A stretch of 29,372 nucleotides of DNA from a virus. The position numbers were made by a program, and so were the translations under genes. Position 1 is the stretch's first letter. Each line of letters begins with the position of its first letter. This document shows, piece by piece, positions 20,156-23,078 of the stretch. The notes beneath the pieces were generated by a model. It had not been told where the DNA came from. It did not search any database and saw only the letters and a program-made list of their open reading frames with translations. The stretch spans positions 1-29,372 of the IMG/VR virus record IMGVR_UViG_3300046516_000972, one strand, 5' to 3'.

Positions 20156-20503
20156 TCAGGGCGCCGCAGGCGAGGCGATCGGCTTGGCCGGCGGGGGATA
20201 GAGGCGGGCGCGGACGCCCTGTAGCGTCGGCCCCTTGCCGTTCGCCTGGTCGCGGATCGCCTCCTGGACGATGGCTAACATCTCCGTTTTGAGCGCATCG
20301 CTCAGCTCGTGCACGCGGATGGTCGGTGCGGGCGTCGCGGACTCGGGCCGTTGACTGTGCCGCCAGGCTTGCATTTCGTCGCGCGTGGCCGTGCGGGGAA
20401 ACATGCGGCTGACGAAGTGGCCGCCGACACGCACGTACGCTTGCCAGCCCTGGCCGGCACGTCGAATTCCCACTCGAGGATCGCTGTGTTGCATGTGCAA
20501 CAT
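20156..20503 (-). CDS. standalone integrase-N-terminal-domain-like protein beside attP
   Basis: The product has 115 residues. Residues ~10-50 (VGIRRAGQGWQAYVRVGGHF...DEMQAWRHSQ) align with integrase residues 8-49 (IGIRRKADGWQAFIDVDGEF...VEMRAWRDAQ). That part of tyrosine integrases is the arm-type DNA-binding domain. The remainder (RVHELSDALKTEMLAIVQEAIRDQ) is helical and there is no catalytic domain. It lies on the other side of attP from the integrase gene, same strand. Phased GCAAC repeats cover its start, so it may bind them and act as an excisionase-like or competing regulator. The start is uncertain: ATG 20503 or 20494, neither with a clear ribosome-binding site. Confidence 0.65.
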   Translation of the reverse strand: MLHMQHSDPRVGIRRAGQGWQAYVRVGGHFVSRMFPRTATRDEMQAWRHSQRPESATPAPTIRVHELSDALKTEMLAIVQEAIRDQANGKGPTLQGVRARLYPPPAKPIASPAAP

Positions 20504-20554
20504 TCTGCAACACTACTGCAACTTATTGCAACTCTTGGCAAGTTCCTGGGCAAG
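20487..20554. repeat. helically phased GCAAC repeats (candidate arm-type sites)
   Basis: GCAAC or GCAAG occurs at 20497, 20507, 20518, 20528, 20538 and 20550, spacings 10, 11, 10, 10 and 12 bp. The first unit is half of the palindrome TGTTGCATGTGCAACA (20487-20502). The array lies 115-185 bp from the attP core and overlaps the putative promoter of the 20503 gene (minus strand TTGCCC, 17 bp, TGCAAT). Units on one helix face fit cooperative binding. Confidence 0.65.
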
Positions 20555-20718: not shown

Positions 20719-21838
20719 AGGACCCGTTCGCTAAGCGCTGTATCTGCGGCTGTTTGCGGCGTCGGGCAAGTTTCGCGGGCAAGCTAAGCGGCCGTTGGGC
20801 CGCGCGCGCGGCCTGTAATTTCACGAGCGCCGCGCGATCGACCTCCGCATGGGCGCCCATCGCATACCGCTGCGTCACGATCGAGCCCGCGACATGGCCG
20901 AGCAACCGGCCGACCGTCGCCAGGTCGTGCGTCTCGCGGTAAGTGTCGGCGCCGAGGCTGTGCCGCAGGTCGTAGAGGCGGATCGGCGTGTCGGCTCCGC
21001 ACACCTTCCGGGCCGCCCGCTTGAACGACGTCGACAACCGCTCGGCCGCGAACGGCCCCCAGGCGCCCGCGGCATCGAGCGCGACGAACGCGGCGACGCC
21101 GGCCGCGGAGAGCTCGCGCGTGTGCGCCGGCGTGCCGCCGCCCTTGTCGCGCCACGGCATCCGCACGAACGCGCCCTTGCGGTCGAACAGGTGCGCGCTT
21201 AGCTTCATCAGTTCGGCCGGCGGGATGCCGGTATGCAGGATGACGGCGACGCGCAGCCGTGCGAAGGACGGCTGCCGGATGCCTTTCGCGATCTGACGCT
21301 CGGCCGGCATCGCCTCGAGAATGCGCTCGAGCGTGGCGAAGGGCACCGAGCGATCGACGGGTCGGTAGTGATCGGGGCGCGTGGTGCCGGTCACCGGATT
21401 GTGGCCGCCGGCGTCGCCGTTCATCACGACGTAGAACGACCCGAGCGCGGTGCGTCGATGGTAGACCGTCGGCTGCGCAAGGCCCGCGGCCAGCCAGTCT
21501 TGCAGGACCGCCTCGACCTCGGCCCGCGTGACCGTATAGCGTGAGCGCGCGCCGCCGAGCGCGTCGATCCAGAGCTGCAGATGGCGCGCGCGTTCGCTCA
21601 TGGTCGGCATCGCGGCAATCTCCGGGCGTCGCAGATACGTCGCCACGTCCGCCGCGAACGAGCCGGCGGTCAGCGGGGCGCGCGCGGTCCCGGCCTGCGC
21701 ATCGCGCCAGGCGCGCATCTCGACGACGGGTGTGTCGATCGCGAACTGCTTCGATCGAAACTCGCCGTCCACGTCGATGAAGGCTTGCCAGCCATCGGCC
21801 TTGCGGCGAATTCCGATCTCTTGGCGACGGCGGGTCAT
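20717..21838 (-). CDS. int: tyrosine-recombinase integrase with altered Arg-I box
   Basis: The protein has 373 residues. Residues 8-49 are an arm-binding-type N-terminus, ~60-150 a core-binding domain, and ~165-340 the catalytic domain. Present: Lys232 (RDKGGG), YDLRH (Arg292, His293), LLGH (His315) and the nucleophile Tyr325 in TQRYAMG. The first catalytic Arg, expected in TGLRxxEL, is replaced: the box reads HTGIPPAEL with Pro206 there. I recall other annotated phage integrases with TG(L/M)P-type boxes, so it may be a real subclass. The gene ends against attP in a tRNA-Gly half, consistent with an active integrase. No strong ribosome-binding site is seen. Confidence 0.85.
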   Translation of the reverse strand: MTRRRQEIGIRRKADGWQAFIDVDGEFRSKQFAIDTPVVEMRAWRDAQAGTARAPLTAGSFAADVATYLRRPEIAAMPTMSERARHLQLWIDALGGARSRYTVTRAEVEAVLQDWLAAGLAQPTVYHRRTALGSFYVVMNGDAGGHNPVTGTTRPDHYRPVDRSVPFATLERILEAMPAERQIAKGIRQPSFARLRVAVILHTGIPPAELMKLSAHLFDRKGAFVRMPWRDKGGGTPAHTRELSAAGVAAFVALDAAGAWGPFAAERLSTSFKRAARKVCGADTPIRLYDLRHSLGADTYRETHDLATVGRLLGHVAGSIVTQRYAMGAHAEVDRAALVKLQAARAAQRPLSLPAKLARRRKQPQIQRLANGS

Positions 21839-22647: not shown

Positions 22648-22851
22648 CAACTTCGGGAGCGCGCGGGCCTCACGCAGTACCGGCTCGCCAAGGTCACCGG
22701 GGTCGAACAGACCACCATCAGTCAGCTCGAGCTCGGCAAGGTGCGCGATCCGCGTTGGTCGACGATCTCTGCCCTGGCCGAGGCGCTCGATACCACGCCC
22801 GGCGTTGTTGCCCGGGCCATCGAACACACCCAGAAACGGAAGATCGCATGA
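22636..22851 (+). CDS. Cro-like XRE regulator
   Basis: The product has 71 residues, nearly all a helix-turn-helix domain: LRERAGLTQYRLAKVTGVEQTTISQLELGKVRDPRWSTISALAEALDTTPGVV. The glycine and Thr-Ile-Ser-Gln positions are classic for XRE recognition helices. It is the first gene of the rightward early operon and ends in an ATGA overlap with another DNA-binding protein. The start codon is inside an operator palindrome, so its own binding would block both transcription and start-site access. Confidence 0.85.
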   Translation: MNFRQLRERAGLTQYRLAKVTGVEQTTISQLELGKVRDPRWSTISALAEALDTTPGVVARAIEHTQKRKIA

Positions 22852-23078
22852 CTGCCGAACAGCGGTGCTACGTCGTACCGCAGATCCTTGAGCGGTTGCA
22901 GATGTCGCGACGGACGTTCGCGCGCCAGCGCAAGGCCGGCGCGCTCCCGTTCCTTGAGGAGCTGCGCCCGCGCATCGGCCGGCGCCCGCGGTACCGCGCC
23001 GACCTGATCGACCAGTACCTGGCGGGCGAGTGGGGCCGGCCGTCGCTGGTGTTCGGCCGCAAGCGCGGGGTGCGCTGA
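22848..23078 (+). CDS. excisionase/AlpA-like HTH protein
   Basis: The protein has 76 residues. VVPQILERLQMSRRTFARQRKAGALPFLEELRPRIGRRPRYRADLIDQYL has the layout of excisionase-type helix-turn-helix proteins (selection of helix with SRRTF..., then a wing with R.G..PRY...D...YL). Such proteins bend DNA for excision or regulate early genes. It follows the Cro-like gene with an ATGA overlap and overlaps the next gene by one base. Xis or early regulator cannot be told apart by sequence. Confidence 0.68.
   Translation: MTAEQRCYVVPQILERLQMSRRTFARQRKAGALPFLEELRPRIGRRPRYRADLIDQYLAGEWGRPSLVFGRKRGVR

Follow-up and report, generated by a model that had tools for sequence, protein, structure and literature searches.

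A small gene lying across the phage attachment site from an integrase gene encodes a stand-alone arm-binding domain homologous to that of the integrase itself, and we give an even chance to the reading that its product is an accessory RDF-like factor that would act on the P arm, limit its own expression, and derive from a copied integrase arm-binding domain. The gene belongs to a soil phage of Acidobacteriota, of which the whole stretch of 29,372 nucleotides (IMG/VR virus record IMGVR_UViG_3300046516_000972, positions 1 to 29,372; hereafter the window) was analysed. On the minus strand, the gene for a 373-aa tyrosine integrase (21838-20717; PF00589, E = 7.9e-7; phrog_1, E = 2.7e-13), with its arm-binding domain at residues 7-52, is followed directly by a 45-bp core (20715-20671), beyond which lies the small gene (20503-20156). 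This core is the exact 3′ 45 nt, CCA included, of the tRNA-Gly(CCC) gene of seven Acidobacteriota metagenome-assembled genomes, in which the tRNA gene is intact, and the exact core was also found in 12 viral contigs. Because phage genes flank it on both sides, the core in the window is attP. From this geometry, a lysogen would have the small gene immediately after the restored tRNA gene and the integrase at the opposite end. An alignment search yielded 27 loci whose integrases are related to the query at 36-100% identity, and the window integrase had no homologue in the phages searched. At integrase residue 206, the window integrase and its close relatives L004, L008, and L018 read HTGIPPAEL in place of the catalytic arginine motif, VGLRP or similar, that the other six integrases of the alignment carry; in these four, a proline replaces Arg I of the tyrosine recombinases, while K232, R292, H315, and Y325 are kept.

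The open reading frame at 20156-20503 encodes 115 aa, and the second ATG, at 20494, is the likelier start, since in L008 the homologue starts at that position, preceded by a GGAG ribosome site. A preliminary description of this DNA had held that the protein repeats the integrase N-terminal domain without any catalytic part, as a true paralogue of the arm-binding domain encoded just across attP, and our comparisons bear this out: the small protein, which lacks a catalytic part, matches integrase residues 8-48 with 46% identity over 41 aa (blastp, E = 2e-10), the match is recovered by tblastn within the record (E = 2.7e-9), and profile comparison with the integrase N-terminal domain gives a probability of 97.6% (E = 2.9e-12). 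No match to an excisionase family was found in Pfam, PHROG, or NCBIfam. A match to KfrA_N was too weak to be believed (E = 0.28 and 0.16). The small protein had no homologue in GenBank phages, the copy in L008 none in plasmids; Acidobacteriota genomes, searched without a positive control, returned one weak match with an internal stop, and a phylum-level search, likewise without a positive control, returned none.

Structure prediction pointed the same way, with a strand-strand-strand-helix order common to both proteins. In the AlphaFold model, residues 11-51 of the small protein, the arm-binding part, form three strands (11-16, 19-26, and 29-36) followed by a helix (41-51); block-mean pLDDT values are 87-92 over residues 11-50. 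A second, conserved helix (69-87) and a tail complete the protein. The integrase N-domain is predicted to fold as strands 7-13, 16-23, and 26-32 with a helix at 38-52, and a three-stranded sheet followed by a helix is the arrangement of integrase arm-binding, AP2-like domains. VIA-align placed the model at Z 4.2 to the AP2 domain 6sy0 (rmsd 5.1, 54 aligned) and at Z 3.1 to the P4-like integrase domain 3rmp (rmsd 2.9, 48 aligned), scores that tie with those of unrelated folds. Foldseek found no solved structure at E <= 0.001 for the model, and a sequence search of solved structures returned chance hits only.

When we looked beside the integrases of other phages, as the preliminary description had proposed, the small gene occupied the equivalent position in L003 (identical), L004 (82%), and L008 (70%), so that three distinct phages (window/L003, L004, and L008) carry the window type. 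Comparison of these three copies gave a dN/dS of 0.19-0.29 over the gene as a whole. The arm-binding half scored 0.19-0.24 and the second half 0.10-0.20, values which indicate that purifying selection acts on both parts of the protein. L014 carries a more distantly related gene for a stand-alone arm-binding domain whose tail differs (1178-1552), beside an integrase about 47-50% identical to that of the window; the product of this gene had no homologue in the phages searched. Whether the L014 gene was copied independently received no answer either way from a tree of the roughly 60-residue domains. The shared position, the distant version in L014, and the purifying selection place the small gene beyond chance, and the idea of a chance reading frame was accordingly dropped.

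The DNA between the core and the small gene carries two sets of short sites. In about 18 related phages, integrase arm sites are located near -68, -56, +118, and +130 from the core, a layout seen in nearly all family loci with a readable attP, with the -68/-56 pair mostly within the 3′ end of int. The arm-site sequence varies between phages, and the four sites within one phage agree closely. In the window, the two predicted int-side sites, CTTGCCCG (minus strand, 20776-20783 and 20763-20770), lie within the 3′ end of int, and the two P-side sites, CTTGCCC (20548-20554) and CTTGCCA (20536-20542), lie on the same strand at positions that are constant across the family. Directly extending the P-side pair is an array of four direct GTTGCA repeats (20496-20532, minus strand; spacing 10, 11, and 10), such that six sites follow in a row with steps of 12-10-10-11-10 in the window, L004, and L008. 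The region 20487-20554, singled out in the preliminary description for a binding assay, thus comprises the two P-side arm sites and the four phased repeats. In L008, the array consists of two GTTGCA and two weaker GTTG copies at the same spacing. The last GTTGCA repeat forms an inverted repeat together with the likely start codon.

The array departs from chance and is tied to the small gene. It was absent from 100 shuffles, and 1000 local shuffles at each of the three loci (window, L004, and L008) never produced a chain of four. All three distinct window-type loci have such a chain; the 15 other attP regions compared lack it and show at most two repeats in a row; L018, whose integrase is 86% identical and which lacks the small gene, has no array. 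An array-only scan of viral contigs gave 33 stretches, of which only those at the three loci already known come with a gene for the small protein. On these grounds, the small protein is likely to bind DNA near attP, with the GTTGCA repeats as its predicted sites.

A link between protein residues and site bases suggests which protein reads which sites. Over 20 integrases, the leading residue-base pairs were D22 with base 1, Q18 with bases 4-5, R11 with base 4, and S29 with base 7, in residue columns that were noticed by eye first and scanned afterwards; residue 27 with base 1 also scored high, probably by hitchhiking on the same clade as residue 22. Phylogenetically independent pairs, counted on a tree built from the integrase without its N-domain, agreed in 4 of 4 cases for residue 18 and base 5, in 2.8 of 3 on average for residue 11 and base 4, and in 1 of 1 for residue 22 and base 1, numbers so small that no sign test can reach significance alone. 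Residue 22 as R or D tracks base 1 as G or C, a rule that rests on a single evolutionary change; L030 is an exception to the base 4 rule, and L043 gives a mixed picture. The pairs make chemical sense, since Arg or Gln goes with G and Asp or Glu with C. With R11, Q18, and D22, the window integrase is predicted to read CTTGC, and its arms are CTTGCC; with R14, Q21, and R25 at the matching positions, the small protein is predicted to read GTTGC, as in the array repeats. The array and the integrase arms are therefore probably read by different sibling proteins.

These observations would fit the following course of events. The N-terminal arm-binding domain of a family integrase would have been copied and joined to a short conserved helical tail, giving the small gene. 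Its product, probably as a group of cooperating molecules, would occupy the four phased GTTGCA repeats and from there could steer the occupancy of the P arm by integrase and thereby the direction or efficiency of recombination. It would also limit its own expression through the array, as we propose because the array runs into the gene's own start. A role in directionality is possible on this sequence evidence. We further suggest, tentatively, a switch after copying, in which base 1 of the integrase arms went from G to C (residue 22 from R to D) and the copy, on its own array, retained the earlier specificity, leaving two insulated siblings on one attachment site with the copy as directionality factor.

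Comparison with known factors lends the accessory RDF-like reading some weight. RDFs of the phage 186 Apl type are marked by operators at attP made of direct repeats, each about six bases long and spaced by one helix turn (PMC7498355); RDFs are small and positively charged (PMC11963761), and some also regulate transcription (PMC7498355, PMC11963761). The small proteins have 105-112 aa and a pI of about 11, and the GTTGCA repeats, to which their binding is predicted, are spaced by 10-11-10. Like Apl, Xis, Cox, TorI, and RdfS, the window protein is thus a small basic protein of a temperate phage with direct repeats of about six bases at attP, 10-11 bp apart. Unlike them, it is predicted to fold as a three-stranded sheet and helix of integrase origin and not as a winged or plain helix-turn-helix, and its RDF role is putative. 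Two further differences count against the accessory reading: the array lies outside the arm sites, and the same phages conserve a more usual Xis candidate, an HTH_17 protein encoded separately; in addition, L014 lacks such an array, although it has a small gene of its own. In phage lambda, Xis binds between the P2 arm site and the core, in contrast to the placing of the array in the window. Lambda Xis touches the integrase N-domains on the arms (PMC4880445).

Of the alternatives, the one that survives best, though we regard it as rather unlikely, is that the small protein is only an autoregulator or local transcription factor, which would bind the array across its own promoter and start and control itself and, in some phages, neighbouring cargo, but not recombination. 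The array does end at the start codon, and in L008 the small gene shares four bases (GTGA), stop overlapping start, with the cargo-type zinc-ribbon membrane gene after it, which favours a regulatory role there; in L036, a similar zinc-ribbon gene occupies that place without the small gene. However, the window and L004 have no close same-strand gene downstream, and in all three loci the array keeps step, at the same spacing, with the integrase arm sites. In most relatives, the slot on that side of attP is filled by unrelated cargo, for example lipoproteins and membrane proteins, which agrees with a regulator of cargo and also means that position alone proves little. The zinc-ribbon membrane-type proteins behind the arm sites of L008 (5385-5966) and L036 are similar to each other (NCPYCAEAIQDAA and KCQFCAEEIQDAA), cargo with and without the small gene. 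Across the core in L011, L017, L019, and L021, the P-side arm sites are followed directly by lipoprotein-like genes, which would adjoin the restored tRNA gene in a lysogen.

It is improbable, in our view, that the small protein is the main excision factor and replaces a classical Xis, as had been suggested at first. Its predicted operators are laid out like those of an RDF, and L018 has a different HTH_17 protein exactly at the place of the small gene (PF12728, E = 4e-11; phrog_66, E = 3.8e-7). Yet an HTH_17, excisionase-like gene (22848-23078, plus strand, in the window; PF12728, E = 3e-5, below the curated cut-off; phrog_66 "excisionase", E = 1.3e-4) lies upstream of int, near the early genes, in nearly every relative with sequence there, including all carriers of the small gene, whereas most relatives lack the small gene. 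For a Xis general to the phage family, this HTH_17 protein is the best candidate. Because it is kept with or without the small gene, the small protein would more probably be an accessory factor or an autoregulator than the sole Xis. Another HTH_17 excisionase-like protein occupies the small-gene place in L007 (1290-1505), with a second tRNA-like 3′ end (GGTCAGGAGTTCGATCCTCCTGCGGTCCACCA, about 1555-1612) behind its gene.

Similarly doubtful is a competitor that would occupy the integrase's own arm sites and block assembly, as a lock on lysogeny or re-integration. The two proteins share the domain, related TTGC sites stand side by side, and in L014 both proteins carry R, Q, and R and hence have the same predicted sites. 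In the window clade, however, the predicted first bases differ between the two proteins (GTTGC for the small protein vs CTTGCC for the integrase), and these residue-base correlations weaken the earlier proposal of competition for arm sites. A decaying integrase fragment without function, although integrase pieces standing alone are common in genomes, is extremely improbable and was dropped, being contradicted by the selection on the protein (dN/dS 0.19-0.29 over its full length and 0.10-0.20 in the part without integrase likeness), by its constant place in three diverged phages, and by its own conserved array.

Neither a stand-alone arm-binding protein nor any described system of this kind turned up in literature searches, in agreement with the preliminary description. 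The closest relations are the arm-binding domains of lambda Int, Tn916 Int, and the P4-like integrases: like these, the small protein is homologous to the N-domain of its own phage's integrase, with the same predicted fold order and with sites beside attP, but it is free-standing and has a new conserved tail and a different predicted first base. Sarkar, Radman-Livaja and Landy (in EMBO J, 2001) reportedly used the isolated lambda Int N-domain in trans, and a separate arm-binding domain is said to be able to modulate integrase. Unlike that laboratory fragment, the small gene is natural and conserved, with predicted sites of its own.

New in this work are the arm-site positions of the family, the GTTGCA array tied to the small gene, and the residue-base co-variation. 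If the preferred reading of an accessory RDF-like factor is true, an integrase can bud off a regulator of itself, its DNA-reading domain turning into a free protein with its own sites beside those of the enzyme. The family would moreover offer a readable link between arm-binding residues (11, 18, 22, and 29) and arm sequence, which may serve to predict attP arm sites and to change the arm specificity of integrases.
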